From NCBI GenBank assembly GCA_021654635.1, contig AP025179.1, forward strand, positions 4,650,001 to 4,714,000: a stretch of 64,000 nt of DNA. The letters are read 5' to 3'. The notes beneath the pieces are model-generated. The model worked only from the letters and a program-made list of their open reading frames with translations. It did not search any database and had not been told where the DNA came from. The stretch is from Mycobacterium kiyosense. Lineage in GTDB: Bacteria; Actinomycetota; Actinomycetes; Mycobacteriales; Mycobacteriaceae. Both the position numbers and the translations under genes were made by a program. Below are positions 1 through 51,880 of the stretch, in pieces (within the stretch, counting starts at the first letter, position 1; each line of letters opens with the position of its first letter).

Positions 1-639
1 TTCCTGCCGCCGCATCGCCCCTGGGCGACGTCGGAACAAATCGCCAACCTGTACAACGCACACCCCACGATGATTAGGGTCAATCTCGTCGTCACCATGG
101 CGGCCTGTGCGCTTTGGGTGCCGTGGGGCGTGGCGATCGGGGGCCAGATCCGGCGGATCCCCGGTGCCAAGGCGCTTGCTGCAACCCAGACGCTGTCGTG
201 CGCACTCTTCTCGCTCGAGTTCATCTTTCCGGTCGGTATCTGGATGGCGACGGCCTTCCGTTCCGGTGACCGGCCGGTCGACATCACCCGCGCGCTCAAC
301 GACACCGGGTGGATTCTTTTCGTCCTGGTCATCTGGTCGGTCGAAGTCCAGATGTTCTGCATCGCGGCGGCTGTGCTCATGGACAACCGGCCCGCGCCGA
401 TTCTTCCCCGCTGGGTCGGCTACCTCACGCTGTGGGCCGCCATCCTCATCATTCCCGCCGGCCTGATTCTGTTCTTCAAGACAGGCCCGTGGGCCTGGAA
501 TGGAATCCTCGGCTTCTTCGTACCCCTCACCGGGCTCGTCGCCTGGCTTGTGTCGATGACGTGGACGGTGCATAGAGCCCTGACACTCCAGATAGCCGAG
601 GGCGCCGGGCCAGAAGACACTCGTATGCTGCGATCATGA
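1..639 (+). CDS. Six-TM membrane protein, paralogue family A (5' end cut by window)
   Basis: The reading frame is open from base 1, so the N-terminus lies outside the window. The visible 212 residues hold about five hydrophobic segments and the signature shared by all family A copies here: an N-terminal loop like FLPP...QIANLY, a central LNDTGW-x-LF segment, PRWVGY, and FFKTGPWAWNGILGF near the C-terminus. Full-length copies at 9507 and 29231 are 248-255 aa with six TM segments, so roughly 35-40 residues are missing. The stop overlaps the start of the P450 gene at 636 (ATGA), implying one operon and coupled translation. I know no biochemical function for this family; the constant pairing with FAD enzymes and P450s suggests a membrane partner or membrane enzyme acting on a lipid substrate. 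Confidence 0.85.
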   Translation, partial: FLPPHRPWATSEQIANLYNAHPTMIRVNLVVTMAACALWVPWGVAIGGQIRRIPGAKALAATQTLSCALFSLEFIFPVGIWMATAFRSGDRPVDITRALNDTGWILFVLVIWSVEVQMFCIAAAVLMDNRPAPILPRWVGYLTLWAAILIIPAGLILFFKTGPWAWNGILGFFVPLTGLVAWLVSMTWTVHRALTLQIAEGAGPEDTRMLRS

Positions 640-2172
640 CCGCAACGAAGCGGAATCGATTGCCTCCCGGTCCACCGCTCCCCCGGTCGGTGCAGACCGC
701 GCTGATGCTGCGCTACTGGCCACGCTTCGTGGCCGCCTGCCGGCGCCGGTACGGCAGCGTGTTCGCGTTGCGCATCGCGACCATGGGGACGCTCGTCTAC
801 CTCGACGACCCCGCCGACATCAAGGCCGTCTTCGCCGGTGATCCCGCCGTTTACCATGCTGGCGAAGCGAATTCGTTGCTCGCGGGGTTCGTGGGCGAAA
901 GTTCGGTGCTGGTGATCGACGGAGACCTGCACCGTGACCGGCGACGTCTGATGATCGCGCCGTTCCAGCGCGACGCCGTCACACGCCAAGCCGGTGTGAT
1001 TTCCGAGATTGCCGCGGCCAGCGTCAACAGCTGGCCGGTGGGGGTGGAATTCCCGGTGGCGCCCAAGATGTCCGAGATCACCCTCGAGGTGATCTTGCGG
1101 ACGGTCATCGGCGCCACCGATCCCGACCGACTCGCCGCATTGCGCGAGGTGATGCCGGCGCTGCTCAACCTGGGCCCGTGGGCCTCGTTGGCAATTGCGA
1201 ATCCCGACCTGCAGCTGCGGCGGCCCTGGCGATATGTGCGCCGCCGCATCGAGGAAGCCGACCGACTCCTATATGCCGAGATTGCCGATCGACGCGCTGC
1301 TACCGATCTTGCCCAGCGCACCGACGTGCTCGCGATGCTGGTGCGGGCCAGCCACGACGACGGTCGAACCATGACCGATTCCGAACTGCGTGACCAACTC
1401 ATGACCCTGCTGGCCGCCGGACATGACACGACCGCCACGGCACTCTCGTGGGCGCTGGAGCGGCTCGTCAGGCATCCCGTCATCCTGCGCCGGGCGGTAC
1501 GCGCAGCCGACGCGAGTGCGGCCGGTGATCCCGCAGGCGACGAGTACCTCGACGCAATCGCCAAGGAAACATTGCGGATTCGCCCCATCGTCTTCGACGT
1601 CGGTCGCGTCCTGACGCGGCCCGTCGACTTTGGCGGGCTACCACCTGCCCGCCGGCGTGATGGTCGCCCCGGGCATCGGGCTGGTTCACGCAAGCCCGGC
1701 GCAATACCCCCATCCGGACCGGTTCGACCCGGACCGGATGCTCGGCACCACGCTCGGTCCCACTACCTGGCTGCCGTTCGGCGGCGGCAATCGGCGTTGT
1801 CTGGGTGCGACATTCGCGATGGTCGAGATGCGAGTCGTACTACGCGAGGTTCTCCGCCGCGTCCAGCTGCGAACGACTGCGGCACGCGATGAACGGCAAC
1901 GCGTGAAGCATGTCATCCTGGCGCCGCACCGCGGCGCTCGAATCTGCATTGAGTCGGTCCGCGGCGCAGCGCCGGCCCCGCTCCCGGCCGCCGAGACACC
2001 CCGCTGCCCCGTTGAAACCCCGCGGGGGCGTGGCCTCGCCGACGTTGCGGCATACCTGACCCACTCAGGTCTAATGTGCGCCAATCAAGTTGTGCGCGGC
2101 CCGATTTCCGAACTCTACGGCGGTGTTCTGCCCGGCCGCCGACATGAAGTCGGCGGCGTACTGCACCGGTGA
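636..2172 (+). CDS. Cytochrome P450 (one frameshift)
   Basis: A haem-thiolate monooxygenase. The first frame carries the proline-rich start (LPPGPPLPRSV), the I-helix AGHDTT at about residues 261-266 and the K-helix ExxR (ETLR, about 311-314). The frame breaks near 1622-1634, where dropping one G from GG gives VDFAGYHLPAG. The rest continues in the next frame with the haem loop FGGGNRRCLG, Cys codon at 1798-1800. Beyond about 1950 the frame runs antisense to the flavoprotein ending at 2071. A second one-base error near 1985 would give a stop at about 2013-2015, which fits a normal P450 length better. It starts at ATG 636 inside the stop of the upstream six-TM gene, so the two are probably co-translated. 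Electron donors would be a ferredoxin with an FprA/FprB-type reductase (one is at 38024). CYP family not assigned. Confidence 0.85.
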
Positions 2173-3372
2173 TGCCGGGTCGAGTTCGGAGTTGAGGCGC
2201 CCGATGTCCTGGTAGGCGCCGATCCGGGTGAAGGGCAACGCCCGCCGCCACCGGGTCACGTGGGTGAATTCGACGGTGTGGCGCAGTTCGGGAAACACCT
2301 CGAACACCGACGCCAGGGTGTGCTGGATCAGTTGCTCGTCGGGGGCATCGATCATCCGCTGCGAGGCGCCGGTTTCCCACAGACAACTCAGCAGGCCGCG
2401 GCCGGCCGGCGCGCGGTCGGGGGCCTTGTTGTGATCGAGGAACATCAGCGCGATATCGGGATCCTCCACCGACGGGAACATCACCAGAAACGCCGGGCAG
2501 TCCGGTGGCCTGCTGGTGCCGACAGCGACACTGACGCATTGGGTATAGCCCAGGCTTTCGTCGAGCGGACCGAGGATGCCGCGATCATCGACGCAGATGG
2601 CTGCCGCCTCGGGCAGCGGGCACGTGACGACGCAGGCATCGTAGTCCGACGTCGTCCCCGAATGCGTGACTCGGACCCCGTTTTCGTGCCGCCGTACCTC
2701 CACGACCGGCGTCTGCAGGTGAACCTTCAGGCGGCTGGCCAGCGCCTCGGGGACCCGGCCCTGCCCGCCGGCGGCGGCCAGGATCTTGGCGGTGAAGATG
2801 TTGCCGATCCCGGAGAACAATTCCACCTTGGACACCTTGTCGGTGTCGGCGATCAACATGGTCCGCACGATCGGCTCACACAGGTAGCTGTCGACTTCTG
2901 CGGACAATGCACGCTTGGCGTAGGCACGCGCACTTTCGGTGTCCAGTGGTGCGGCCTTGCGCATGTCGGCGTAGTCCAGACGGCCGCGCGCCTTGGCCAT
3001 CGCCACGTCAATCGCCAACCGCGGCACCCGCAGCTTTGCGCCCAGCGACAGCAACGGCGTCGTCAAGCCAGAACGGACCATCTTGTCCATGTCGAGCAGA
3101 TGCGTCGCGCCGGCGCGACGGATCCCGATATATGGTGCGGTGGGCCGCATTTCGATGCCGAGTTCGCGCGCCAACGCCAGGTAGCTGTGGTATGTCGAAC
3201 CGAGCGCAGAAGCCCCGGTGTCGACCGCGTAGCCATCGCGGCGCACGGTCTGTACCCGGCCACCGGGCGAGTTCGTCGCCTCGAAGACATCGACCTGCCA
3301 TCCGGCGGTCTGCAGCCGATAGCCCGCCGTAAGCCCGGACAAGCCGGCTCCGACTATCGCGGCTTGCGGCAT
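2071..3372 (-). CDS. FAD-dependent amine-oxidase-like flavoprotein (group 1)
   Basis: A 433-aa flavoprotein of the NAD(P)-binding Rossmann / amine oxidase / protoporphyrinogen oxidase superfamily. The N-terminus has the dinucleotide motif GAGLSG (residues 8-13), the ribose-binding Glu at 31 in VFEA, and GGR at 37-39. The C-terminus has the FAD-contacting stretch around QYAADFMSAAGQNTAVEFGNR. No signal peptide is visible. ATG 3372 is chosen because AAGGTGG sits at good spacing; a GTG at 3378 overlaps the stop of the upstream six-TM gene (GTGA) and is the alternative. It is co-directional with that gene, giving a six-TM / FAD pair. Closest paralogues in the window are 4402 and 49011. Likely an oxidase or desaturase of a hydrophobic substrate; substrate unknown. 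Confidence 0.88.
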   Translation of the reverse strand: MPQAAIVGAGLSGLTAGYRLQTAGWQVDVFEATNSPGGRVQTVRRDGYAVDTGASALGSTYHSYLALARELGIEMRPTAPYIGIRRAGATHLLDMDKMVRSGLTTPLLSLGAKLRVPRLAIDVAMAKARGRLDYADMRKAAPLDTESARAYAKRALSAEVDSYLCEPIVRTMLIADTDKVSKVELFSGIGNIFTAKILAAAGGQGRVPEALASRLKVHLQTPVVEVRRHENGVRVTHSGTTSDYDACVVTCPLPEAAAICVDDRGILGPLDESLGYTQCVSVAVGTSRPPDCPAFLVMFPSVEDPDIALMFLDHNKAPDRAPAGRGLLSCLWETGASQRMIDAPDEQLIQHTLASVFEVFPELRHTVEFTHVTRWRRALPFTRIGAYQDIGRLNSELDPASPVQYAADFMSAAGQNTAVEFGNRAAHNLIGAH

Positions 3373-3374
3373 GC

Positions 3375-4112
3375 TCACGCCACCTTGACCGCAGCCACCG
3401 GCCGCTCGGGCACTCCGTCCAACCGGTGCAGCGACTTGCGGATCGCGTAGTACATCACGAAGAACCAGACCCAGAACGTCGCGAACGGCAGGTAGAAGCC
3501 GAACAACCCGTTCCAGGCGAACGGACCGCTCTTGAAGAAGAAGATGATGCTCAGCGGTATCAGGTCCAGCATGAAGAAGACGTTGAACCATCCTACCCAG
3601 CGCGGAATGATCGGATCAGGGTCCTCGTCGGCAAGTGAGGCGTAGATGATGCTGATGACGACGAAGTAGAACGGTGCTATCACGCCGAGGAACTGCAGCC
3701 AGGCGATGTCGTTGAGCAGTTGCACGATCTGCGGATCGCGCTCGGAGCGAAACGACGCGGTGAGCCACCAGCCTGCGGGATACGCGGTGAGCAGCACATT
3801 GGTACAGCCGGCGATGATCTGACAGAACGTCAGGATGCCCGGCTTGCCCTCCACGGCCGCGATGAGTTTGGCCAGCATCGCCGTCCAGGGCACATAGAAC
3901 ATCGAGCCTACCAGCACCAGCACCATTCCGATGCGGATTCCCATGACGTTGTCGTGGTAGACCCGGGTAATCCGGGCGGCGTCCCAGCTCGGCGGCTGCG
4001 AAGGGAAAAAGCCGGCGAGCGGCCAGATGCCGACCATCAGGAAGGCGATGTAGACGAAGCCGCTCCACGAAGTCTGCTTCAGGAGTCTCAGATTTGCCTG
4101 TGGCGATAGCAA
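3375..4112 (-). CDS. Six-TM membrane protein, family A
   Basis: About 245 aa from a TTG start at 4112, chosen because GGAGGAGGG lies just upstream and the resulting length matches the family; longer in-frame starts run up to 4229. Six hydrophobic segments are visible. Family signatures are LLNDIAWLQFLG, PRWVGWFNVFF and FFFKSGPFAWNGLFGFYLP. The stop overlaps a possible GTG start of the flavoprotein downstream, so the two form a coupled membrane protein / FAD enzyme pair. Upstream at 4178-4193 there is a palindromic operator overlapping a TACAAT -10 box on this strand, so TetR-type repression is likely. Confidence 0.85.
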   Translation of the reverse strand: MLSPQANLRLLKQTSWSGFVYIAFLMVGIWPLAGFFPSQPPSWDAARITRVYHDNVMGIRIGMVLVLVGSMFYVPWTAMLAKLIAAVEGKPGILTFCQIIAGCTNVLLTAYPAGWWLTASFRSERDPQIVQLLNDIAWLQFLGVIAPFYFVVISIIYASLADEDPDPIIPRWVGWFNVFFMLDLIPLSIIFFFKSGPFAWNGLFGFYLPFATFWVWFFVMYYAIRKSLHRLDGVPERPVAAVKVA

Positions 4113-4177
4113 TTCGCCCTCCTCCTCGGCCGCTCGCGGTCCCCGCACTCCGATCTGGGTTGAGACATCGAAGAATT

Positions 4178-4193
4178 GTAAACGATCGTTGCC
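4178..4193. promoter_or_regulatory. TetR-type operator, shared 16-bp motif (site a)
   Basis: GTAAACGATCGTTGCC, the GTAAACG-NN-CGTTTAC motif with a weaker right arm. On the minus strand it reads AACGATCGTTTACA running into TACAAT, a plausible -10 box for the six-TM gene starting at 4112. The same 14 bp, also running into a TACAGA box, recurs in front of the flavoprotein at 50327. Confidence 0.6.
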
Positions 4194-4300
4194 GCTTTTC
4201 GTACGGTCACAGAGTACCTCGCGGAACACGGTTTAGACCCCGACGTAAGTTCTGAATTAGTGAAAATTCGGGTCATCAGCTCCTCGATCCGAAGATTTCC

Positions 4301-4351
4301 GTAAACGATGGTTGACACCAACTATTATTAAACCCTACTGTCTCAAAATAA
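4301..4351 (+). promoter_or_regulatory. Promoter with overlapping operator (site b)
   Basis: A GTAAACGATGGTTGAC operator (4301-4316) overlaps a consensus -35 TTGACA (4312-4317). An 18-nt spacer leads to -10 TACTGT (4336-4341), followed by CTCAAAATAA (4342-4351). The TACTGTCTCAAAATAA block is repeated exactly at 32878-32893 with its own TTGACA at 17-nt spacing. It drives the flavoprotein operon starting at 4402, and operator occupancy would block the -35. Confidence 0.65.
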
Positions 4352-4401
4352 CCCTCCGCCACGAGAGCCCTAGAAGCCACCAGGTGCCCCGAACATCGAT
4401 C

Positions 4402-5770
4402 GTGAAAGCACGGCGCGCAGTTGTCGCCGGCGCTGGAATCGCCGGCCTCACTGCCGCTTACCGTCTGCAGCAGGCAGGCTGGGAGGTGGAAGTCTTCGAA
4501 GCGGAATCCCGCGCGGGCGGCCGCGTCGAGACCATCGTGCAGGACGGCTATCGCGTCGACACCGGCGCGACGGCGTTCGCCGCGCGATACCCGATTGCCA
4601 CGCAGCTGGCCAACGAGCTGGGGCTGTCCATCGTGGACACGGCCCCATATCTCGGCATCTACCGCGACGGCCGGGTCCGGCTGTTGCGCCTCGATCGGTT
4701 GATCCGCTCGGGGCTGAAAACCGATGCGCTGTCCTGGTCCACCAAGGTCAGGCTGGCACGGGTGGTGCTCGACGTCGCGCGAGCCAGTCTGCGCGGCATG
4801 CTGTCCTACGATGACCTGCGCGCCGCGGCACCGCTTGACACCGAGACCGCCCGCGATTACGTACGCAGGCTGGCCGGGGCCGAAGCCGACGCCTACTTCG
4901 GCGAACCGATCACGCGCGCGTTGTTGCTCACCAACTCCGACAAGGTCAGCCGCGTCGAGTTGATGTCGGGTCTGGTCAATGCGGTGGCCGGCCGCCTGTC
5001 GACGCTGACGGGTGGGCAGGGCGCGATCATCGATGCGCTGCTGGCACAGGTGCGCACGGTGCACCTGTGCTCCCCCCGCACTTTCACTGACCGAAACCAA
5101 CGATGGTGTGCGCCTGAAATATCGCGACCCCGAAGGAGAGACGAAGACGGTCGAGGCCGACGCGTGTGTCGTCGCCACCCCACTGCCCGTCGCGGCCACG
5201 ATCTGCGCTCCCGCCAGAACACGACTCGGCCTGCTCAACGCCACGCTCAAGTTCACCCAGGCGATCAACGTCGCCATCGGCACCACCCGCCCGGCGAACA
5301 CACCGGCATTCCTGATCCAGCTGCCCGCCGCCGAAGACCGCGAGGTCTGCATGATCATCGTCGAGAACAACAAGGCGCCAGACCGTGCGCCGTCCGGCCA
5401 CGGACTGCTCTCGGTGTGCTGGGAGATGTCGGCGGCCAGCGCATGGATGCAGCGCTCCGACGACGAATTGGTGGCGCGCTCACTGCAAACAGTCCTGCGA
5501 CTGTTCCCGGAGCTCAGCGGTACCGTCGATTTCACGTATGTGCGCAGGTGGCCAGTGGCGTTGCCGCAGGCACGCGTTGGCGTCTATCAGCAGATCGCCG
5601 AGTTCACCTCGAGCCTGAATCCACGGTCGCGCATTCAATTCGCCGGCGACTACTTATCGCAGACCGGCCAGAATACGGCCGTCGCCTGGGGCAACCGCGC
5701 CGCGGCGAACTTGACCACCCACCAGAGTCGACGCATCTGGGCCAAACAAAAGGAGTTCACTCATGGCTGA
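4402..5770 (+). CDS. FAD-dependent amine-oxidase-like flavoprotein (group 1, one frameshift)
   Basis: GTG 4402 gives an N-terminus with GAGIAG (residues 10-15), Glu33 in VFEA and GGR at 39-41, the spacing seen in the copy at 2071. The frame breaks at a six-C run (5072-5077); removing one C restores a continuous protein through VHLCSPALSLTETNDGV to the C-terminal FAGDYLSQTGQNTAVAWGNRAA. Corrected length is about 455 aa. The stop overlaps the next start (ATG 5763) by 8 nt, placing it first in an operon with a phosphotransferase, a DUF7064-like protein and an enoyl-CoA hydratase. The promoter and operator are at 4301-4351. Likely an FAD oxidase or desaturase; substrate unknown. Confidence 0.85.
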
Positions 5771-6827
5771 TGTCCAATCAATGCTGAGCTCTGTGATCGG
5801 CGCCGGCAAAGACGTCGTTCACAAAGTCGCCGCCGACGAGATTCGTCGCTTCATCGAAGAGCAGCCCGATGTCAGCGGCAGCGTCGAGGTGACGGTGATC
5901 GGCGACGGCGGTGAAGTCGGCGCCTCAAGTGGCACAGTGCTGTTCGACGCAACTCTGGACAGTGACCGCGGCCGTGTCACCCGCGAGCTGGTGCTGCGTC
6001 ACGCGCCGGTCAGCGACAAACGGTTGTTCTTCGAATACGACTTGTCGCGACAGTTCCAGGTACAGCGCGCTCTGTACGGCACCGATGTGCCGGTGCCCGA
6101 ACCATTGTGGCTGGACCCCGATGGCCGCTGGCTCGGCGCCGCCGGATACGTGATGTCGCGGGTGCGGGGGCGGGGCCAGCATCCAGCCGCCTTCATTCAG
6201 GGACCGATCGCCGAGGCGTCGCCGGCCGATCGGGAGGAGATGCTGAACAAGATCATGACGGCGTTGGTTGCCATCCACAACACCGACATCAAGGCGCGAG
6301 GCCTGGAGAACTTCGTGATGAACGCACCGGGTTTCGCACCGCTGGAGCGCCTCATCAATTGGTATTGGCAGACCTGGGATTGGGTGCACCTGCCAACGTT
6401 CGAGCGCCTGGTTCCGGTCCGCGGGTGGCTGCTCGACCACCTTCCCGAGGGTGAGCCGGAGTTGATGCACGGCGACTCGACACTGCAGAACTACTTTTTC
6501 GACGGCACGAGACTGGCAGCGGTGCTGGATTGGGAGATGTCGAGCCTTGGGCGCGCCGAGGCGGACCTCGCCCTGCAATGCGTCAGCAATCGCATCTTCG
6601 CGGCGCCGCCCGACAGCGGATTGCTGCAGCCACCAAGCGAAGACGAATGGCTGGCCAGGTACCGCGCCGCCGGCGGCCGACCATTGCACGACTTCGACTA
6701 CTTCAAGAAGTTCGCCGCGTACATGATCATCGTCGCGGTCAGCGCACTGCAGAGAAACATGACGGAAGCCGAACGTGAAGCCCAGGCGCCGCTGTTGCAG
6801 CCGTGCTGGGATCTCGCGGAATCATGA
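5763..6827 (+). CDS. Phosphotransferase family protein (APH / ACAD10-like kinase fold)
   Basis: 354 aa with the aminoglycoside-phosphotransferase kinase fold. The catalytic loop is HGDSTLQN (His236, Asp238, Asn243) and the metal-binding DWE is at 256-258. This subgroup is common in mycobacterial lipid and acyl-CoA gene clusters and is related to the kinase-like domain of eukaryotic ACAD10/11, which acts on hydroxyacyl-CoAs; antibiotic resistance is not implied. Enzymes of this kind may phosphorylate a hydroxyl group to prepare elimination. Here it lies between an FAD enzyme and an enoyl-CoA hydratase, which fits a hydroxy-lipid substrate (inference). It overlaps the upstream flavoprotein by 8 nt. 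A second, divergent copy is at 10369. Confidence 0.85.
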   Translation: MADVQSMLSSVIGAGKDVVHKVAADEIRRFIEEQPDVSGSVEVTVIGDGGEVGASSGTVLFDATLDSDRGRVTRELVLRHAPVSDKRLFFEYDLSRQFQVQRALYGTDVPVPEPLWLDPDGRWLGAAGYVMSRVRGRGQHPAAFIQGPIAEASPADREEMLNKIMTALVAIHNTDIKARGLENFVMNAPGFAPLERLINWYWQTWDWVHLPTFERLVPVRGWLLDHLPEGEPELMHGDSTLQNYFFDGTRLAAVLDWEMSSLGRAEADLALQCVSNRIFAAPPDSGLLQPPSEDEWLARYRAAGGRPLHDFDYFKKFAAYMIIVAVSALQRNMTEAEREAQAPLLQPCWDLAES

Positions 6828-6839: not shown

Positions 6840-7868
6840 ATGTCCAGTGAAACCATTCAAACGCATGACAAGGCGTTCTGGGAAGAAAAGAACCTGTCGT
6901 TCGGAACCGCTGTACCCGAGGACGACCTGCTCCATCCACAATTCAAAGACACGAATAGATCACCCGCCCTGACCGAAACCCAATTTTTCGGCTTCAGCGT
7001 CCCGGAGGAGAACATCCATGCGCTGACCTATGTGTGGCATCACCCGAATCTGGGTGTGGTCAGCGGTGGCGCCTGGGTATGGCAGGGCGTCAAACGACAC
7101 TTCCTCCAGTCCGAACTGGTCAACTGGACGTCCTTCATGAGCGAGGACGTTCTGGCGAATGACTTGTGGGACTACAAATTCGACAACGGCTACCACGTCC
7201 AGACGATCGAACCGCTCAAGAGGCATCGACTGCGCTACACCGACGAATCACGCAACAACTCGTTCGACATCGAGACGCAGGCCCTGATGGAGCCGATGCT
7301 GTTGCAAACCGGCATGCACTTCGAGCAGGCGGTGCGTGCACGCGGCGAACTCACGTTGCGGGGCAAGACGTACCAGGTGGACTGCACCCATGTCCGCGAT
7401 CGTTCGTGGGGACAAAGTCGCAGCGAACAACACGCCCCGACACCGCCATTCGACTGGATCACCGGCGTCTTCAGCGAGAACTTGATGTTCGGTTGCAGCA
7501 CGTACGATCATCCCGATCTGGAGCCCGAATGGAAGGGCCAGCTGCAGGTTCCGGGTGGCGACCCGACCAAAGGAGGTTGGGTGCGCCGGGATGGCCAGCT
7601 GATTCCGATCGTCTCCACCCGAAAGCTCGTCGGCCACGATTATTCGACACTGGCGCCGACCACCATCGAGATGGAGATGATCGACGCCACCGGACGCGAG
7701 TACCAGATCCGCGGTGAGGTCGTTGCGGCCAACCATATTCCCCTGTGGCCGAATATGGATACCTGGGTGTGCCTCGCACGTTGGGAGTGCGCGGGCCAGG
7801 TCTGCTATGGCGACCTACAACAGGTGCAGTGGCACGATTATGTCCGACAGTTTCTAGGACAGTCGTAG
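6840..7868 (+). CDS. DUF7064/DUF7065-like protein, possibly lipocalin-like
   Basis: 342 aa, soluble, no signal peptide or TM segment, rich in Trp and aromatics. Recognisable features are an N-terminal half with repeated aromatic beta-strand-like stretches (LTYVWHHPNLGVVSGGAWVW), a central CTHVRDRSWGQS segment and a C-terminal half ending in a Trp-rich strand. It resembles mycobacterial proteins labelled DUF7064/DUF7065, and loosely the AttH/CrtC lipocalin-like enzymes such as carotenoid hydratase; this is from memory and unverified. The ATG at 6840 is preceded by GGGGGA. It is 12 nt after the phosphotransferase stop and 2 nt before the enoyl-CoA hydratase start, so in the same operon. A role as hydratase, isomerase or lipid-binding partner is inference only. 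Confidence 0.6.
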   Translation: MSSETIQTHDKAFWEEKNLSFGTAVPEDDLLHPQFKDTNRSPALTETQFFGFSVPEENIHALTYVWHHPNLGVVSGGAWVWQGVKRHFLQSELVNWTSFMSEDVLANDLWDYKFDNGYHVQTIEPLKRHRLRYTDESRNNSFDIETQALMEPMLLQTGMHFEQAVRARGELTLRGKTYQVDCTHVRDRSWGQSRSEQHAPTPPFDWITGVFSENLMFGCSTYDHPDLEPEWKGQLQVPGGDPTKGGWVRRDGQLIPIVSTRKLVGHDYSTLAPTTIEMEMIDATGREYQIRGEVVAANHIPLWPNMDTWVCLARWECAGQVCYGDLQQVQWHDYVRQFLGQS

Positions 7869-7870
7869 CG

Positions 7871-8692
7871 ATGGTTTCTTCGATTCCCGCCACCGCAGCT
7901 GCCCGGCCCGCCTCAGACGTACTCGTCGAGCGCGACGACACCGTGGGCGTCATCACGATCAATCGACCCGCACGACTCAACGCCGTCACCCCGGAGGCCG
8001 GGGACACGCTGAGATCGGCTTTCCTCGAGTTGGAAGCCGACAGCCGGATCCGCGCCGTCGTGCTGACCGGCGCGGGCCGCGGATTCTGCGCGGGCGCGGA
8101 CATTTCCGGCGACGTAGGCGACGCCCGGAAGGTGCTGCTCGACTCATGGAACCCACTGGTGCTCACGATGCGGTCGCTACAGATCCCCGTCGTCGCCGCG
8201 ATCAACGGGGTGGCGGCCGGTGCGGGAGTGTCGCTTGCGCTGGCGTGCGATCTGCGTGTTGCGGCCGCTTCAGCGCGCTTTGAGTTGTCGTTCGCAAAGA
8301 TTGGACTGATGCCCGATGCGGGCCTGACGTGGTTGCTTCCCCGGGTCGTCGGGCTGGGGCGTGCCAACGAGATGGCATTGCTGGGAGGACGCGTTTCGGC
8401 CACCGAGGCACGCGACTGGGGCCTGGTGAACCGGCTGGCCGAGGACGGTGAGGCGCTGACCGACGCGATAGCGATGGCCCGGCGCTTCGCCGAACTGTCG
8501 GTCAGCGTGGCAACGATCAAGCACGCGCACCAGCGAGCTCTGGAAAGCGACTTCCCAGTCAAGCTGACCTACGAAGCGGAGACCCAGGGCTGGCTTCAGC
8601 AACAACCCGATTTCGCCGAGGCGACACAGGCGTTCGCCGAGAAAAGGCCGCCCCGCCTGGCCGAACGTAAGCCGCCGGACCGCAACCGGTGA
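7871..8692 (+). CDS. Enoyl-CoA hydratase/isomerase family protein
   Basis: About 273 aa crotonase-fold enzyme. The oxyanion-hole signature GAGRGFCAGADIS and the second loop VAAINGVAAGAGVSLALACDLRVA are present. The region after KIGLMPDAG carries the crotonase acidic position. ATG 7871 lies 2 nt after the DUF7064-like stop. It would act on an acyl-CoA double bond, so the operon from 4402 combines FAD oxidation, phosphorylation and hydration or isomerisation. Exact substrate not deducible. Confidence 0.88.
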   Translation: MVSSIPATAAARPASDVLVERDDTVGVITINRPARLNAVTPEAGDTLRSAFLELEADSRIRAVVLTGAGRGFCAGADISGDVGDARKVLLDSWNPLVLTMRSLQIPVVAAINGVAAGAGVSLALACDLRVAAASARFELSFAKIGLMPDAGLTWLLPRVVGLGRANEMALLGGRVSATEARDWGLVNRLAEDGEALTDAIAMARRFAELSVSVATIKHAHQRALESDFPVKLTYEAETQGWLQQQPDFAEATQAFAEKRPPRLAERKPPDRNR

Positions 8693-9387: not shown

Positions 9388-9506
9388 AAAAACTTGCTGA
9401 ATCGCTCCTCCGCTCCGGTACGATACCTCTGGCACCGCACCGGAGCGTCGCCCGCACGGGCACCTCGGGCGTCGCGGCTGCCACGGGTCGGTCGGAGGAG
9501 AAGACG

Positions 9507-10253: not shown

Positions 10254-10314
10254 CCTGAGCGAACCGTCGACCGGATGCTGCACGGTCGAGGGTCTACTCA
10301 CGCCGGCTCATTTT

Positions 10315-10331
10315 TGATATAAGTTGTATCA
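10315..10331. promoter_or_regulatory. AT-rich inverted repeat before phosphotransferase
   Basis: TGATATAAGTTGTATCA, 7-nt arms with one mismatch, 38 nt upstream of the start at 10369. It contains a TATAAG-like -10 element. Probably an operator overlapping the promoter. Confidence 0.45.
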
Positions 10332-10368
10332 ATAAAAACGCATGATCTCGTCAGCGAAGGAACGCTTC

Positions 10369-13323: not shown

Positions 13324-13340
13324 CAAACCCAGGAGTGACG

Positions 13341-14186: not shown

Positions 14187-14202
14187 CAAAAGAGGAAACC
14201 CG

Positions 14203-29172: not shown

Positions 29173-29177
29173 ACACG

Positions 29178-29193: not shown

Positions 29194-29230
29194 ATACAAG
29201 GTGATTCGACCGAGTCGAGGAGGACGATCG

Positions 29231-34698: not shown

Positions 34699-34700
34699 CA

Positions 34701-41893: not shown

Positions 41894-42042
41894 CTTCTGG
41901 CTCCCGGTGTGACGGCGATAACAGTAGTCTCCCCGATTCAAACCTAATGACGCAAGGTTTTGACTGATACGCCTACGCCGGAATTTTGGTAGCCACCCAC
42001 CGGCGATGCTGGACGGCTGCCGACGTCACCGGGCGCGAGCAG

Positions 42043-43254: not shown

Positions 43255-44084
43255 GGCTGCAGCTCCATTCGCGAGTGCGTGGTGCGGTTTACCGCCGCAC
43301 CTACTGATCTGGTCGGTGGTGTGACCTGCAACCGCAGCGCGGTCAGTTCGGCCTCGAGCAGCGCGACCCGATCGGCGAGTGTGTGCCCGCCCGGGTGTGG
43401 TTGGTCGTCGTTGACGATCGCGCGCCCCGTCAAGATCGTCGTGACGACAACCCACACGAAGTAGGCGATGACGGGGGTCCAGAAGCCGAGCAGGCCGTCC
43501 CAGGCAAGGGGCCCGGATTTGAAGATCCACACTCCGAACGTGAGGCCGACCCCCAGCACGCACCACAACTGAAAGTAGGCGAACCAGCGAGGGTAGACCG
43601 GCTCAACGCGCCTGTCGCCCAGCGTGATCACTGCCAGCGCGACCATTTGGAACATGCCCGTACAGACGATTCCCAGGAAGGGAAGCCAGCCCAGGTCGTG
43701 AAACGTCTGCACGCGCGACGCATCGTCCGGACGAAATGCGGCCACCAGCCAGAACGCGCACGGATAGACGAACTCGATGACCACGCACCCCTGTGCCGCA
43801 GCCCACGCCCACGTCAGCGGGGCCCGAGAACCCTCCACCCGCAGCATCTGCGTGCAGATCGCCCCGCCCCACGGCAACAGTAACGCGGAGGCGAAGAGCG
43901 CAAGGACCATACCGACCCGGATACCGACGAGGTGGTCCCGGAAAAACCGGGCCATCTGCTCGGCGGAATTCGTTGGCGAGGGCGGCGGAACCATGCGCGC
44001 CAACAGCACCCACCCGATCAGAAAGAGTGCGATGAAACCGAAAACCGAATACAGGCTCCAAAGCTGCACGCGCTTAGCGCTCAT
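43251..44084 (-). CDS. Six-TM membrane protein, family A, with C-terminal coiled coil
   Basis: 277 aa from ATG 44084; GAGGAAGG lies upstream, and GTG 44087 or a GTG at 44132 overlapping the upstream stop are alternatives. Six TM segments with the family signatures PPPSPTNSAEQMARFF, HDLGWLPFLGI, PRWFAYFQLW and FKSGPLAWDGLLGFWTP. Unlike the other copies it has an extra C-terminal heptad-like segment (LADRVALLEAELTALRLQV) suggesting a docking helix. Sandwiched between two AveC-like genes. Confidence 0.84.
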   Translation of the reverse strand: MSAKRVQLWSLYSVFGFIALFLIGWVLLARMVPPPSPTNSAEQMARFFRDHLVGIRVGMVLALFASALLLPWGGAICTQMLRVEGSRAPLTWAWAAAQGCVVIEFVYPCAFWLVAAFRPDDASRVQTFHDLGWLPFLGIVCTGMFQMVALAVITLGDRRVEPVYPRWFAYFQLWCVLGVGLTFGVWIFKSGPLAWDGLLGFWTPVIAYFVWVVVTTILTGRAIVNDDQPHPGGHTLADRVALLEAELTALRLQVTPPTRSVGAAVNRTTHSRMELQP

Positions 44085-44128
44085 CACCCCAGTGCCTTCC
44101 TCACCCCAGACGTACCGCGCGCGGACTT

Positions 44129-45250
44129 TCACCCCCGGTCGTACGGGAACTGCGGGGGATAATTGCGGCCGAACCCCTGGCCGTTGGCCCCCCGGTCCCG
44201 ATTGTCGTTACGCAGCAACGGCACATCGGGGGCCGGGCAGGCGATACCTGGGCCTTCGCCACACGTGTAGGTCAGGTAGGAACGCTGCTGGATGTCTTTG
44301 TTCCACTCGGTGGAGTGCGCACCGAACCAGGTGTTGGGCAATGTGTATCCGATCGTCATCGCCAACGTCACCAGTCCTGTGACCGCCAACATTCTCACCG
44401 CCGTGACCTTTACCGGTCCGCCGGCGAGTTGTTCAGTGCCCCATTCGGCCAGCGATTGCCCGCGGTCGTTGGTGAAGTACTTGATGCAGGCGAACATGGT
44501 GAAGATCGCACCGGTGGTCAGCGCCTCGTTGAGCGGATACGCATGAAAGGTGTCGGCGAAAATCTTGACGTGCCCGCCCGGGTACTCCCACGAGCCCATC
44601 GGCATGAAAACGACACCCTCGAATATCAGATCGAAGGGCACCATGACCGCAAAACAAATGGCGGCCAACCCAACTCGGGGAATTGCGGGCCAGCGCGCGT
44701 GGGCCCGGCGCATGATCGCCGCGCCCATCATCGTCACCAACAGGAAGACCACGATGTAGGCGCCCGGCACGATGAGAAGCGGATAGGCGACCTGGTGCTC
44801 CGGTGTTCCCGGCGCCAGTGCACCGGGCACGCTGTTGAGCCACGAACCCATATTCACTTGCCACGCGTTGTAGGTGTACCAGTGCCCGACGTACGCACTG
44901 AGCGGGTCGTGAAACGACAGCATCAGAAACGCGATGACCATCAGCCCGTCGAGCCCGATCCGCCGTTCGCGCCGCCAGGGCCGCACTACGAACCAATACA
45001 GCACCGCAAGCCCGGCGATCGGCAACGCGATCTGCCAGAACGTCAGCGCCACCTTCATCCACCCGGGGATCGGAGTCGGCCCGGGATCAACGGATTTGAA
45101 ATACGGTCCGGTGACCCACCGGGCCAACACAAACGCCTGGAATGCGAGCAGCGCACCGCCGAAGGCGGCCCACCATTTGACTGCGGGTACGGGTCGGTCG
45201 GCGACGGCGATCGGGCGGCCGTTGGCCACCGCGGGGGTGGCGGTGCTCAT
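44129..45250 (-). CDS. Spirocyclase AveC-like membrane protein
   Basis: 373 aa, about eight TM segments. Motifs FHDPLSAYVGHWYTYNAW, GSWLNSVPGA, DLIFEGVVFMPMGSWEYPGG, FHAYPLNEAL and a Cys-containing tail (SYLTYTCGEGPGIACPAP). Its ATG overlaps the flavoprotein stop (ATGA). Strong full-length similarity to the protein at 42043, so the cassette has two AveC-like subunits. Confidence 0.82.
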   Translation of the reverse strand: MSTATPAVANGRPIAVADRPVPAVKWWAAFGGALLAFQAFVLARWVTGPYFKSVDPGPTPIPGWMKVALTFWQIALPIAGLAVLYWFVVRPWRRERRIGLDGLMVIAFLMLSFHDPLSAYVGHWYTYNAWQVNMGSWLNSVPGALAPGTPEHQVAYPLLIVPGAYIVVFLLVTMMGAAIMRRAHARWPAIPRVGLAAICFAVMVPFDLIFEGVVFMPMGSWEYPGGHVKIFADTFHAYPLNEALTTGAIFTMFACIKYFTNDRGQSLAEWGTEQLAGGPVKVTAVRMLAVTGLVTLAMTIGYTLPNTWFGAHSTEWNKDIQQRSYLTYTCGEGPGIACPAPDVPLLRNDNRDRGANGQGFGRNYPPQFPYDRG

Positions 45251-46593
45251 GCTGGGACCTTTCTGCTCACTACGAGCTGCTCGACGATCCGGTCCCCCGC
45301 GGCCTGCCCCGACACCAAGGCGCCGTTGACACCCGGTATCGGCCCGATATCGCCGGCCAGTTGCACACGGGCGGCGGGGTCGGTCTCGCGCATGAAGCGG
45401 TCGACCGCGTGGAAGCGCCCCTTGCGCATGATCGGAACGACATTGCGCCAGCGACCGATCTCGAAGTCGACGACCCTAGAGCCTAAATCGCCGTAATAGG
45501 GCTTGACGAAGCCCAATACGGAGTCGATGACCTTCTCGTCCGGGCTGTCCAGATTGTCCAGACACCATTCGTGACGGCAGAACGTCGTGATCATCCCCGT
45601 GCCGTCGGGGCACCGGTTGTTGGCTTTGAGGTGATCCACGATGACACCGCACAGGTCGGGTTGTTCGCGCGGCGAACACATGATGTACGTCGCGGGATTC
45701 GACGGCCGCTCCGCCAACGCGATGTGGCAGTTGACGCTGCAGATGTAGTCGGTGTTTTCGTAATACTCCCGGGCGAATCCGGAGATCTGGGGATAGATCT
45801 CCAGTGCTTTGGCCGTCGGCGTCGTCACCACGGCGTTGGCGAACTCCTCGGTGACCTCGCGGCCGTCACGGATGAAGCTGACTTCGACGCGATCTCCCGC
45901 GTCGGTGACGTTGGTGACCCGAGTCGCCAGCCGAACATCGTTGAGCCCGGCCGCCATTGCCCGAGGCAGCGCGTCCATGCCGTCGTCGAGACCGTAGAAG
46001 TACGGTTTGAAGAAGTTCTTCATGGTCCATAACAGCTGACCTACCGACGCGTACGACGGGTCGCTCAACCAGGGACCCCGGACCACCACGGCGGCAACGT
46101 AATCAAGGATCTCTTCGCTGAGTTCGCGGCGGCTGTAGGTGGCGACCGTATCGGTGTCGATGGCGGCAACGCCCGACGCATCGGCGTAGTTGAGGTCCTT
46201 CCAATGCCTGGCCAGGAAGATCATCAGCTTGGCCAGCTTGAGCTTGGCCCGGCCCGAAAGGTACGGCGTACCCAGCAGGCTCAGCGGCTTGCTGAGGTCG
46301 AGGAAGTTCAACTCGCCGCCCCGTGGCATCGCACCGAATGCCTTGAATTTGTGCATCTGCGGTCCGAGGCCGACCTCGCGCATCTCTTGCGCGGACTCGG
46401 CATAGCTGCCGAGATAAATGAAAGCTCCTACGTCGTAAACGAATCCATCCCGCCGGATCGTCTTGATCCGCCCGCCGACGCGATCCTCCGCCTCGAAAAC
46501 CACGGGCGTACCACCGGCTCGCTGTATCCGTCGCGCCGCGGCGAGACCAGCTATGCCGCCGCCTACCACGGCGGTCCTCGCGTCTTTCCCCAT
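45247..46593 (-). CDS. FAD-dependent amine-oxidase-like flavoprotein (group 2)
   Basis: 448 aa, intact. GGGIAG at residues 11-16, Glu34 in VFEA, GGRIKTIRRDGFVYDVGAFIYLGSYAE, and C-terminal VQLAGDIGPIPGVNGALVSGQAAG. First gene of the cassette, divergent from the tetR at 46683 with operator repeats between them. Same subgroup as 24419 and 29995. Confidence 0.88.
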   Translation of the reverse strand: MGKDARTAVVGGGIAGLAAARRIQRAGGTPVVFEAEDRVGGRIKTIRRDGFVYDVGAFIYLGSYAESAQEMREVGLGPQMHKFKAFGAMPRGGELNFLDLSKPLSLLGTPYLSGRAKLKLAKLMIFLARHWKDLNYADASGVAAIDTDTVATYSRRELSEEILDYVAAVVVRGPWLSDPSYASVGQLLWTMKNFFKPYFYGLDDGMDALPRAMAAGLNDVRLATRVTNVTDAGDRVEVSFIRDGREVTEEFANAVVTTPTAKALEIYPQISGFAREYYENTDYICSVNCHIALAERPSNPATYIMCSPREQPDLCGVIVDHLKANNRCPDGTGMITTFCRHEWCLDNLDSPDEKVIDSVLGFVKPYYGDLGSRVVDFEIGRWRNVVPIMRKGRFHAVDRFMRETDPAARVQLAGDIGPIPGVNGALVSGQAAGDRIVEQLVVSRKVPA

Positions 46594-47358: not shown

Positions 47359-49042
47359 TCATGCCGATTCACCGGTGGCCGGTTCGGTCCGGGCGTCCAG
47401 CACCGTGACCACACCATTGGTGGCGTCCAGGCGTATCCACATACCCGTGCTGAGCCGGCTGACGGCCTCCCCCGTGTTCACCACGCAGGGAATGCCCATC
47501 TCGCGGGCCACGATCGCGGCGTGGCTCAGCGGACCGCCGATGTCGACGACCATGCCCGCCACCAAGGGAAACAACGCGCACCAGCTCGGATCTGTCACCT
47601 CGCAAACCAGGATCTCCCCCGGTTCGAGATCCTCGGCAACCTCCAGGCTGGTGGCTACCCGGGCAGCACCCTCGACCACACCGTGGGTGATCGAAACGCC
47701 CGCGATGGTGTCGCCGGCTCGTAGGTCCGCGCGTTTCTCCCGGCGGGTGCGCGGCTGGGGCATGCCCACCCAGCGGTCCGGGAAGGTCAGCGTTTGGTAT
47801 TCGGCGCGTTGCGCCAGCCGGCGCGCGGCCACATCACGCACTTCGTCTCGCCCGTCGTCGAGTCCGCGCAGAACCTCGGGCACAGTGAAGGCAAATACGT
47901 CATCGGCCTGCGCCAGCACCCCCTTCGCCACCAGTTCGGCACCATGACGCCGGGCGGCGAACCGGGCCACGTCGAGTGCCATCAGGAACGCCGCCTTGCC
48001 CACTTCGCGCAGTGGCAGGTAACGCTGCGCGAGCCGCAGCACGCCCCGAGCCTTGACCCGTTGGTGTGTAGGCAGGTTCGCCAACAGCGTTCGTTCGGCA
48101 GCGATGCGCCTTTCGCGGCGGTCGTCCTGCTCGGTCGCGCGATCCTCGACCCCGTGGTGGGCGTACCGCTCGGCGATCGAAGTCACCAGACTCGGGTCTT
48201 CGCGCCACGAAGTCGATGAGACCTCGCCTTCTTCGGGGCCGTGGAAGCCGTAGCGTGCGACGAAAGCGTCGACCGAAAGAGAGCCACGCGAAACCTTCCA
48301 GAAGGCAGCGACCATCTCGGCTTCCTCGTAGCCGCCGTAACCTCCCGCTAACTGGGCCACCAGCCCCGGGTCCCCGGCCGCACGAGCCAGACGTGCGAGC
48401 TGTTCGAAAAGAGCCTGCGTCACCGCCACGGCGATGATGTGAATTCGCATGGCCGCGTCGAACTTCTCGACCGCCTCCGCAAGCAACAGACGGCCGGGGC
48501 GTGCGTGCGTCGGCTGGGTTTTCGCAGTCCACCATCGATGCTGGTCACGGTGGAGCCGCTGTAACCGCATCGGCAGCCTGGCGGCCTCCACGGGGAATCG
48601 AGCCAGCACGAAAGGCAAACGCCGCCAAGAGTTCTCGCTCGGCACTCCGTCGCGCACCGATCCGAGCAACTGCTCTTCCATCGCGTCCCCGGATGTTCCC
48701 GGCGTGAGATCGGCGATCTGCCGCAGGTGTGTGACATTCATTGCGGCACGGCCGTAGAAGATCGCGGCGAATCGCTCGTCGACGCTATCGGCTCGGCCGG
48801 TCAATCGTCGAGGCAGCACTCCGAGCCGATAATAGGCATACGGCACCGACACCTCGTTGCCGATCGAGAATATGGACCACGACATCGGGGTCGGCACCCC
48901 CGGGTATCGCTTCGGCCAGGTTCACCGTGCTCCAAAACGTGTCCGGCCCGCTCTGCTCGTGAAGCGGATCGGGCCACGCCACCGGTTCGGTGCGTTCCAC
49001 GGTCAATTGGTCACCGCCCGCCCAGAATCCGGCGTGCCGCAT
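47359..49042 (-). CDS. PEP-utilising-enzyme-like protein with swivel His domain (one frameshift)
   Basis: About 560 aa after removing one base from the five-C run 48897-48901, which joins an N-terminal part to PGVPTPMSW. The C-terminal 90 residues are the mobile phosphohistidine domain: ILVCEVTDPSWCALFPLVAGMVVDIGG then GGPLSHAAIVAREMGIPCV with the phospho-accepting His. The preceding helical part resembles the substrate-binding region of rifampin phosphotransferase-like proteins. No ATP-grasp domain is present, so an ATP-binding partner would have to act in trans, or phosphotransfer is lost. The start region overlaps the end of the flavoprotein upstream by 32 nt. Confidence 0.75.
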
Positions 49043-50327
49043 GCTCACCCCAACGGGCAGCGGATTCCATCGAACCCGCACCGAACAGGTCGCCGGCTAT
49101 CTGCACCGGACCCTGCGTGGGCAGCGAAGCTCGCAGGATGCTGTTACGGCGCCAAAAGCCGGGATCGGCAAGGTATCCCGCATATGGCCAACGTGTCACC
49201 ACCGATAGTTCCCGTTGTCCGGATAATTCGGGGCACAGTCCCCTCGATGATGCCGGCGGCCCAAGCCTCCAATTGAGCATCGCTGTAATCGAGGAACCTG
49301 TCGGTGACCGCGGTGTCGGTGTAAATAGTCACCAGGCTGTGTCCCTGGGGTGCCCGATCACTGGATTTGTTGTGCTGCAGGAAGATCAACAGCGCTTCGG
49401 GCTGCTCGACGGTCGGGACGAGGACCGTGTAGGCCCTGCTGGTCGTCGGCACCCGGTAACCGAGGGACACGCTGATCAACTTGACGTTGCGCAGCTTGTC
49501 ACCGAACGCCGGCGCCGCCGTCAGCAACGGCGGCCACATTTCGACGGCGCGGTGATACATGGCACTGATGACACAGTGCTCTGCGCTGAGATCGTGGGCG
49601 CCCGCACTGTCCATGTAGGTCACGATGACGCCGGATTCCGTCTCATTGACGTGAGTAACCGTCGCCCCGTAGCGCACGTCGAGTCTCGACGCGAGTTCAT
49701 CGGGAACCGTCGCCAACCCGCCGCGCAGACTACGTAGGCCACCCGACCAAGCACCCAGTGCGCCAAGCACATTCACACTCGATGCGTGCCGCGCGCCCGA
49801 ACCGGTGGTAAGGCGCATCATCGGATCGATGAGATAGTCGGCCACTTCACGGCCGAAATAGCGCAGGGCGAAGTCTCGCGCCGAGACATCCGGGTCGTCC
49901 AACGACGCCGACCGGCCCATATCGTAGGAGTCGACGCCCTTGATCGCCTTCCGCAATCGGAGGAACCCGGCAGCAAGACGCAGCTTCCCCCAACGTCGAC
50001 AATGCGGGCGTAAAGGGCAGCTTCGGCAGATTTTCGGGATCGATGTCGATCACGCGTCCCTGCCGGACCAGACCCATGACCGCGCTGGTGTCCACCAGAC
50101 GGCTCTGCAGGCCCAGATCCTGCACCAGCTGTAAGGTAACTCGCGTAGCCGGCCGTCAGGGCGTCCGGGCCGGTATCGACGATATAGCCGCCGTGACACT
50201 CCGTTTGCACGCGACCGCCCGGCCCACTACCGGATTCGAGCACCGTGACTGTGGCGCCGCCTTGTTGCAAGCGGTACGCGGCAGCGAGTCCGGACAGCCC
50301 CGCGCCCACCACGACGACCGAGGTCAC
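49011..50327 (-). CDS. FAD-dependent amine-oxidase-like flavoprotein (group 1, three frameshifts)
   Basis: GTG 50327 gives VTSVVVVGAGLSGLAAAYRL with the dinucleotide motif and GGR. Three one-base insertions break it: AA at 50133-50134, the five-C run 49987-49991 and the four-C run 49240-49243. The corrected protein (about 437 aa) joins as ASYLQLVQDLG, STLGKLRLAAGFLR and GLCPELSGQRELSV, ending in VQIAGDLFGAGSMESAARWGE. Group 1, like 2071 and 4402. Shared operator f is 77 nt upstream. Confidence 0.78.
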
Positions 50328-50403
50328 GGGCGGTCGACCCAGCGTTCGATTCCCACCCCTGCAGGTTCCATGAGATGACTCCGCTCGGCCCGCCAATGCA
50401 TCT

Positions 50404-50882: not shown

Positions 50883-51638
50883 GTGACGCCAGCGCAGTTT
50901 GCCCACCAACGACTTCAACTTGCGCTCTGGGGCTGCGGGATCGGGTTCGGAGTGCTGTTCTTCGTGGGACTCATGCCCTTATCGCACTTCATTCCCCCAC
51001 CATCGCCCCAGTTGTCAGGCGCCCAATTGATGGCGGAATTCGGTCCCAGGCTGCCGTGGGTCAAATTCGGAATCCTCGTCGGCTTGCTGGGCAGTGCCTT
51101 GCTGGTGCCATGGTCGGCAATGGTCGCCCTCCAGGTAGCACGCATGGAGGAAGGCCGCCGGGTCCCGCTCTGGGGCATCTTTGCGTTCGGCGCCGGCTGT
51201 GTGAACGCAGTGGCCTTCATCCTTCCCTTCATATTCTGGGCCGGAGCCTTCTATCGCCCCGACCGGTCGCCAGAGCTGGTCCGGCTGATAAACGACATGA
51301 CGTGGCTCGAGTTTCTGATGTTCTTTCCAACGTTCAGCATGCAGCTGTTCTGCGTGGCAATGGCCGGCTTCACTCAGCGCCAGGGACCAAAGGTGTTCCC
51401 CCGCTGGTTCTTGTATCTGAACCTCTGGATGGCAACGATCGGCGGGACCGGTCTCATTTCGATCTTTTTCTTCTCGGGACCCTTTGCGTGGAACGGCATC
51501 GTCGGATTTTGGCTTCCCGTCGGCTCGTACGTCCCGTTCCTCATCGTTACGTTCGTCCAGTTCTACAAAGCGATTGTCGCGGAGAAGTACTGCTATGAGT
51601 CGACGGATTCTCCCGCGAGCGTCGGGACGGCCGCATAG
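50883..51638 (+). CDS. Six-TM membrane protein, family A
   Basis: 251 aa from GTG 50883 with AAGGAAGGA upstream. Six TM segments and signatures HFIPPPSPQLSGAQLMAEF, INDMTWLEFLMF, PRWFLYLNLWMA and FFFSGPFAWNGIVGFWLP. Followed within 35 nt by a C-terminal fragment of another copy, so this locus has seen duplication or recombination. Confidence 0.87.
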   Translation: MTPAQFAHQRLQLALWGCGIGFGVLFFVGLMPLSHFIPPPSPQLSGAQLMAEFGPRLPWVKFGILVGLLGSALLVPWSAMVALQVARMEEGRRVPLWGIFAFGAGCVNAVAFILPFIFWAGAFYRPDRSPELVRLINDMTWLEFLMFFPTFSMQLFCVAMAGFTQRQGPKVFPRWFLYLNLWMATIGGTGLISIFFFSGPFAWNGIVGFWLPVGSYVPFLIVTFVQFYKAIVAEKYCYESTDSPASVGTAA

Positions 51639-51671
51639 CGTATCGAGCGCGTCGTCGTGTCACTTTTCACG

Positions 51672-51880
51672 GCGACGACCGCGTGGACCGCGCTGATGTT
51701 CGAGGGCGGCGCCGTCGCGTTCCTTCACCCGCTCGGGCCCGTTTGCCTGCAACGGCTTGCGGGCGTTCTGGTCACCGGTGATCACGTTTTTCGCCTGGCT
51801 CGTCGTGACGGCGGTCCTGATGTTCCGGGCGATCGGGCCACAGGCCCTGCACCGTCGGTACCCATTGCGGTGCTCGAATA
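51672..51880 (+). pseudogene. C-terminal remnant of a six-TM family A gene
   Basis: No start, and at least one frame change, but the order AWTALMFEGGAVAFL, GPFACNGLRAFWSPVITFFAWLVVTAVL reproduces TM5, the GPFAWNG loop and TM6 of family A. The N-terminal two thirds are absent. It lies directly after the intact copy at 50883 and before site g. Confidence 0.6.

Follow-up and report, generated by a model that had tools for sequence, protein, structure and literature searches.

The 64,000-nucleotide stretch of the Mycobacterium kiyosense genome analysed here (the window; bases 4,650,001-4,714,000 of a 6.35-Mb single-contig genome, with a window G+C content of 64.5%) forms the middle of an island of about 460 kb in which several families of membrane proteins and flavoproteins have been expanded and diversified. 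The island is real, large and partly conserved. We tentatively read its enzyme sets as the membrane front end of a degradation or tailoring route for lipid- or terpenoid-type molecules. The families concerned are AveC_like membrane proteins, a set of smaller AveC-related membrane proteins (family B), FAD proteins of the amine-oxidase type (FADox), CrtO-like FAD proteins and six-transmembrane proteins (family A). The first-pass annotation of this DNA had proposed a co-duplicated three-part complex of flavoprotein, family A and AveC-like protein; this should give way to a core operon of AveC, FADox and B, with or without CrtO, that an independent family A has often joined.

Gene families were delimited by an all-against-all comparison of open frames together with Pfam and NCBIfam scans of the window. 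As counted in the first-pass annotation, the window holds eight FAD flavoprotein genes (six FADox and two CrtO-like, three of the eight broken) and six family A genes plus one C-terminal fragment. The seven AveC-like genes reported there are also present, but only three encode members of AveC_like (PF17198); the remaining four, one of them broken, constitute family B, whose relation to AveC shows only when profiles are compared. The three AveC_like proteins, at 23316-24422 on the forward strand and at 42043-43254 and 44129-45250 on the reverse strand, score 154.9, 173.3 and 176.3 bits, respectively, against PF17198 (cut-off 26.6), and every one of the 46 sequences in the AveC alignment has a PF17198 match at E<=10. 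In this they resemble AveC and MeiC of the avermectin and meilingmycin clusters. Excerpts of two papers describe AveC as a spirocyclase with dehydratase activity in avermectin biosynthesis (PMC5240415, PMC4581413). Unlike AveC and MeiC, the window proteins are not accompanied by a macrolide cluster but lie in operons with FADox, B, CrtO and A, and they belong to a set of diverged paralogues that are 20-64% identical within this one genome. Family B consists of membrane proteins of about 280 residues, encoded on the forward strand at 13335-14186, ~14188-15033, 25799-26629 and, broken, 26670-27483. None of eight aligned B paralogues matches PF17198 at E<=1; comparison of the B and AveC profiles gave an hhalign probability of 91.8 (E 7e-7), with the B stretch NEPLID paired with QEPWID of AveC. 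The residues E66, D70, P93, Y100, E139, Y150, P162 and N169 are invariant in these eight paralogues. Among the closest known systems is the Insig-like fold (MvINS, 4xu4), a candidate fold for AveC and B; no Insig family was among the listed sequence matches of AveC at E<=10. The structure of the AveC_like protein at 44129-45250 was also predicted.

The four open FADox genes, at 2071-3378 (reverse strand, GTG start), 24419-25792 (forward), 29995-31440 (forward) and 45247-46593 (reverse), encode proteins that score 165, 129, 153 and 141 bits against PF01593 (cut-off 19.8). Of the two broken genes, that at 4312-5770 (forward) lies as two halves in different frames and that at 49022-50396 (reverse) is broken into several. 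The glycines of the N-terminal dinucleotide-binding motif are conserved in FADox, and the best solved relative by sequence is the protoporphyrinogen oxidase 3i6d. The CrtO-like genes lie at 20909-22501 (reverse, open) and 27600-29172 (forward, broken). By sequence, the two flavoprotein families are kin to phytoene desaturase, CrtO and protoporphyrinogen oxidase, FADox matching PF01593 and the CrtO-like proteins NF045689. They differ from these enzymes in that the scanned proteins stay below the curated cut-offs and the island has no phytoene synthase. Against crtI_fam (TIGR02734, cut-off 238.1) the scores were 49.5 bits for 2071-3591, the single FADox frame included in the NCBIfam scan, 50 bits for 20909-22501 and 64.7 bits for 28006-29172; the same FADox frame gave 78.6 bits against the protoporphyrinogen oxidase model TIGR00562 (cut-off 97.85), and the CrtO-like proteins gave 228.8 (20909-22501) and 121.4 bits against NF045689 (cut-off 1000). 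On these scores the CrtO-like proteins are classed as relatives, not equivalogs, of the beta-carotene ketolase CrtO.

Family A proteins have six transmembrane helices, belong to no Pfam family and share the motifs F-PPPSP, FRPER/LND, PxFPRW and FFKxGPxAWNG. Their genes occupy 1-639 (forward; the 5' end precedes the window), 3375-4229 (reverse), ~9498-10253 (forward; a longer open frame starts at 9285), ~29234-29998 (forward), 43251-44132 (reverse) and 50883-51638 (forward), and the C-terminal fragment lies at ~51724-51853 (forward; profile positions 188-230 of 245). Relatives numbered 764 among 8000 candidates scored; one family A protein is 90% identical to its counterpart in Mycobacterium palustre, the closest named relative among the matches listed, and among 120 listed homologues none bears a functional name except two called 'MFS family permease'. 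DUF4386 (PF14329) was matched by one of 19 own members, at E 0.37, and by precomputed annotation in two of the 120 listed homologues. The structure predicted for the protein at 29234-29998 is a six-transmembrane fold (pLDDT 94.8) and comparison with the PDB returned only generic helical bundles, with no clear structural relative, a GPCR/rhodopsin-like fold being among those considered; sequence searches of solved structures gave none for A or B and only chance-level matches for AveC. A relationship of family A to AveC or B was considered and dropped, profile comparison having given nothing.

The expansion extends well beyond the window, over ~4.38-4.82 Mb (mapped at 4.375-4.834 Mb). Genome-wide, family A has 33-35 matches, 23 of 33 within the mapped interval and the rest mainly at 77-101 kb and 5.49 Mb; of 17 AveC matches 12 fall within it, as do all 13 of family B and 11 of 13 FADox matches (E<=1e-50), these counts taking in halves of split genes. 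A map of the best match at each place in the interval shows 21 A, 12 AveC, 10 B, 10 FADox, 8 CrtO-like and 14 PEP-utiliser (PEPu) genes; the number for B rises to 11 with the second B gene at 14.2 kb, which the map hid behind an over-long LLM frame. The clustering is not due to chance, because no A, AveC, B, FADox or CrtO gene, and no PEPu gene, was found in a control of twenty 20-kb segments taken from across this chromosome (400 kb in total), which leaves out the second site at 77-109 kb. The corresponding counts in the 440 kb of island and the 400 kb of control are 23/0 for A, 14/0 for FADox, AveC and PEPu and 11/0 for B; genes cut at the 20-kb tile borders and broken genes may be counted twice. 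FADox pieces below 60-70 bits, mostly the FAD-binding motif, were left out of both the map and these counts. Accessory enzymes are enriched as well: P450 13/2, LLM 12/1, SDR 10/1, APH 9/0, BVMO-like FAD 7/0 and thiolase 5/1.

Within the island the families recur in ordered runs. On the forward strand at 23316-31440 the order is AveC-FADox-B-(B)-(CrtO)-A-FADox, the brackets denoting broken genes, and on the reverse strand at 46593-42043 it is FADox-AveC-A-AveC. The 4-nt start/stop overlaps noticed in the first-pass annotation can be read in the sequence at 3375/3378, where the FADox start meets the stop of A, and at 24419/24422, 29995/29998, 45247/45250, 44129/44132 and 43251/43254. The order AveC-FADox-B found in the window is repeated in this genome at 4517-4512 and 4546-4543 kb. 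It recurs in other mycobacteria (L097, L100, L111 and L117, and G018 and G043 by coordinates), and FADox adjoins AveC in L085, L095, L122 and L126. For statistics we used a named collection of 79 A loci (from the best 80 of 254; 34 mycobacterial and 45 other), of which 25 contain AveC, 19 B, 31 FADox and 23 CrtO. Genes were taken as near when within 1.5 kb on the same strand, and the SDR, enoyl-CoA hydratase (ECH), acyl-CoA dehydrogenase (ACAD) and AMP-ligase genes of the same loci served as controls. FADox of the main subfamily is near AveC in 9/23 cases, compared with 2/120 for the controls (Fisher 7e-7), and near B in 4/23; CrtO is near A in 18/30 and near B in 8/30, compared with 0/120 for the controls in the latter case. 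FADox is near A in 11/23 cases against 27/120 for the pooled controls (Fisher 0.02). The association of the families therefore holds beyond this genome, as the recurrence of AveC-FADox-B and the proximity of FADox to AveC attest.

Repeated co-duplication of the parts, from which the first-pass annotation had argued that they work together, is not supported. The operons at 4514 and 4544 kb have FADox proteins that are 48% identical and AveC partners that are 23% identical, and these unequal identities, taken by themselves and not from trees, speak against duplication as a unit. Compared in this way, the operon partners appear to have been shuffled rather than co-duplicated.

Of 60 genomes of the genus, our own included, 50 have A, 44 have AveC, 12 have B and five have FADox (E<=1e-50); 28 FADox candidates were scored per genome, so that misses are possible. 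FADox occurs in 5/5 genomes with at least ten A matches (35, 43, 28, 16 and 10) and in 0/55 others (Fisher p 1.8e-7, or 2.2e-6 without our own genome), and the copy numbers of A and AveC co-vary (Spearman 0.64, p 3e-8; 0.62 without our own). The first-pass annotation had regarded rare co-occurrence outside this genome as telling against its proposal. Such rarity is not seen among the expanded genomes, but the full set is still uncommon, with FADox in 5/60 genomes of the genus. The phylum was sampled with 149 genomes, of which 13 carry A and 15 give FADox-like matches at E<=1e-50. The sole genome outside the genus with a FADox above 300 bits is G113, from another actinobacterial class, which carries nine A genes and the neighbours AveC-FADox, FADox-A, B-A and A-COX3. 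In Hydrocarboniphaga, two loci (L102 and L122) combine A, B, AveC and FADox, and L102 also contains CrtO. In two Frankia genomes (L075 and L076), family A lies a few kilobases from a gene that is related to FADox but belongs to a different subgroup.

Family A also keeps other company. COX3-like genes are its commonest neighbours in the 79 loci (a total of 48 such proteins from 44 loci, with 41 no more than 300 bp away on the same strand; examples are L082:547-1955 and L098:~10000-11620). By profile, COX3 accompanies A in 47/79 loci, comprising 10/34 mycobacterial and 37/45 other loci; AveC is found with A in only 3/45 of the latter. The order A, COX3 and COX4-like is found on annotated plasmids of Rhodococcus, Novosphingobium, Diaphorobacter, M. 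branderi, Pseudonocardia and Streptomyces, and in Sphingobium the COX3/COX4-like genes are on the opposite strand, 2.6 kb away from A. In Proteobacteria and Actinobacteria, A, COX3-like and COX4-like form a three-gene membrane module, the COX4-like part of which was checked on the annotated plasmids. The COX3/COX4-like pairs beside A are, we assume, of the NorE/NorF type. The present system differs in that the window contains no COX3-like gene and the annotated plasmid tables contain no oxidase subunit I. Two further loci with A and COX3-like (L109 and L146) come from metagenome bins labelled Klebsiella pneumoniae, possibly wrongly. These distributions argue against family A as a fixed third part of the complex, as had been supposed, since AMP-ligase is near A in 7/16 cases and, outside mycobacteria, the partner is COX3-like in 37/45 loci and AveC in 3/45. 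On the Novosphingobium, Sphingobium and Diaphorobacter plasmids, A and COX3/COX4-like lie near genes of catabolic type (ring-hydroxylating dioxygenase, epoxide hydrolase, acyl-CoA dehydrogenase, thiolase or CoA-transferase), and plasmid neighbours of A and AveC are largely of this type, with the exception of one Streptomyces polyketide synthase (PKS).

The open copies are under purifying selection. For open genes that closely match genes of the M. palustre or M. triplex loci, dN/dS is 0.05-0.17: 0.08 for A at 1-639 (against M. palustre L074) and 0.048 for A at 29234; 0.095, 0.078 and 0.076 for FADox at 2071, 24419 and 45247; 0.06 for AveC at 23316; and 0.17 for B at 25799. The value of 0.64 for AveC at 42043 was set aside, the comparator being a 66% identical paralogue. 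Other genes are split between frames, in the window three FAD genes, one B, an ACAD and an LLM gene and, probably, the cytochrome P450 gene at 636-2172. The splits may reflect decay or assembly error. In the corresponding run of M. palustre, AveC and both B genes are open.

Several other genes accompany these families in the window. On the forward strand an APH-type phosphotransferase (5763-6827, PF01636) is followed by a DUF7064/DUF7065 protein distantly similar to Rv3169 (6840-7868) and an enoyl-CoA hydratase (7745-8692, PF00378); the DUF7064/DUF7065 type is present in 16/79 A loci, in several adjoining APH-type kinases. A cytochrome P450 (31441-32604, reverse, PF00067), an AMP-dependent acyl-CoA ligase (33115-34698, forward, PF00501) and an acyl-CoA dehydrogenase (34647-35864, forward), with a second, broken copy extending to ~37002, come after the 23316-31440 run. 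At 38024-41941 (reverse) a GltD-like flavoprotein adjoins a molybdopterin oxidoreductase, and a molybdopterin oxidoreductase also lies near the AveC genes of the M. branderi plasmid. PEPu, represented in the window at 47359-48897 (reverse, PF00391), is a further expanded family, one of its 14 island places being a 45-residue fragment. It resembles the C-terminal part of rifampicin phosphotransferase and PEP synthase-like enzymes, with the swivel-domain histidine aligned; it differs from them in that no N-terminal ATP-binding domain was found and its score against rifampicin phosphotransferase (NF041857), 128 bits over the C-terminal part only, is far below the cut-off of 999. Directly past the last A gene, at 52052-56913, serine recombinase, pSAM2-type RepSA and FtsK-like genes make up what looks like an actinobacterial integrative conjugative element.

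The reading that we tentatively prefer is that the island sets act on environmental molecules of low solubility that are probably polycyclic or terpenoid/sterol-like. Judging from what is known of their families, the membrane-embedded AveC and B proteins would carry out acid-base chemistry on a lipid-dissolved substrate, be it dehydration, hydration or the closing or opening of a ring, and the neighbouring FADox and CrtO-like flavoproteins would dehydrogenate or oxidize it at the membrane surface. Family A might be a six-transmembrane partner or scaffold that presents the membrane substrate to such oxidases, after which P450s, LLM enzymes, SDRs, kinases, CoA ligase, acyl-CoA dehydrogenases, hydratases and thiolases would activate and shorten the product. 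The substrate class, the catabolic direction and the scaffold role of A are guesses. In favour of the reading count the clustering and copy-number co-variation of the families, the recurring AveC-FADox-B order, the low dN/dS of the open copies, the enriched accessory enzymes, the catabolic-type genes near A and COX3/COX4-like on plasmids and the activity of AveC in avermectin biosynthesis. Several observations weigh against this reading. No result points to a substrate. AMP-ligase, DUF7064 and PEPu genes are near A as often as FADox is (7/16, 8/16 and 7/11, respectively). When adjacency in the island at 600 bp is compared with random placement, only FADox-B is clear (P 0.003); the P values are 0.07 for FADox-AveC, 0.12 for CrtO-A, 0.16 for FADox-A and 0.18 for AveC-A, and AveC-B gives none, with the gap taken between profile ends and thus missing wider pairs such as AveC/FADox at 4517/4515 and 4546/4545 kb. 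The p-values from the genus are optimistic, because the 60 genomes are related and 28 FADox candidates were scored in each. In the island/control comparison ECH (5/5) shows no enrichment and ACAD (12/7) and AMP-ligase (8/4) show only a mild one; the query sequences were drawn from the window and catabolic-type plasmid regions, a choice that favours the island. Frame splits affect roughly a dozen of the island's genes (A, AveC, B, FADox, CrtO, COX3, PEPu, ACAD and ECH).

Two alternatives deserve weight. The sets could instead serve the synthesis or tailoring of the cell's own cyclic lipids, polyketides or isoprenoids, with AveC and B closing rings and the flavoproteins desaturating; we consider this possible but rather unlikely. 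AveC itself is biosynthetic in the excerpts cited above, FADox and the CrtO-like proteins resemble carotenoid enzymes, and the P450 at 636-1892 weakly matches terpene oxygenase models. Biosynthesis also fits because a Streptomyces plasmid carries A, COX3 and COX4 beside a type I PKS and a P450, and because one PKS lies within the island, at 4.410-4.416 Mb. Against this, PKS pieces are not enriched (two in 440 kb of island, four in 400 kb of control), thiolase, LLM and P450 genes are, and A has neighbours of catabolic type on three plasmids. The sole SQS_PSY match of the genome lies at 1.82 Mb and its polyprenyl synthases at 0.94, 1.82, 2.55, 3.97 and 5.31 Mb, so that neither family is represented in the island (terpene cyclase families were not part of the search). 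With these absences and the largely catabolic plasmid neighbours, the making of cyclic lipids or isoprenoids, as first suggested, does not find support.

Alternatively, there may be no single system: A would belong to an independent COX3/COX4-like membrane module, and AveC, B and the flavoproteins parts of unrelated pathways gathered at a hot spot for incoming DNA. This, too, we hold to be doubtful. The predominance of COX3 over AveC at non-mycobacterial A loci speaks for it, as do the near-random outcome of most island adjacency tests, the several other enzymes that are near A as often as FADox, the shuffling of operon partners and the integrating-element genes that border the module at 52-57 kb. 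It is opposed by the proximity of FADox to AveC and of CrtO to B relative to the controls, by a gene order common to several genomes and by the restriction of FADox to A-expanded genomes. A further view, that for the most part these are duplicates in decay or products of misassembly that now do little, we hold to be very improbable. Splits affecting 3/8 FAD and 1/7 AveC-type genes of the window, together with the ACAD, LLM and probably P450 genes, speak for it, and the low dN/dS of the open copies and the intact AveC and B genes of M. palustre speak against it.

A bolder version of the preferred reading, which as a whole we think a long shot, would treat A and AveC/B as membrane subunits that can stand in for one another in a new class of redox machine for lipid processing. 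A would then serve as a general six-transmembrane docking subunit, pairing with COX3/COX4-like proteins in many phyla; mycobacteria would have re-used it to hold phytoene-desaturase-like flavoproteins against Insig-folded AveC and B, the result being a combinatorial membrane enzyme set for sterol- or terpenoid-like molecules.

The gene system was not met in the literature searched, which comprised open-licence papers. The repeated pairing of family A with COX3/COX4-like proteins or with lipid-type flavoproteins provides a functional handle on this family. For AveC, a protein of avermectin biosynthesis, the island reveals diversification within mycobacteria and an operon that recurs. Should sterols or terpenoids prove to be what the module processes, bacterial handling of such compounds would gain a membrane route.

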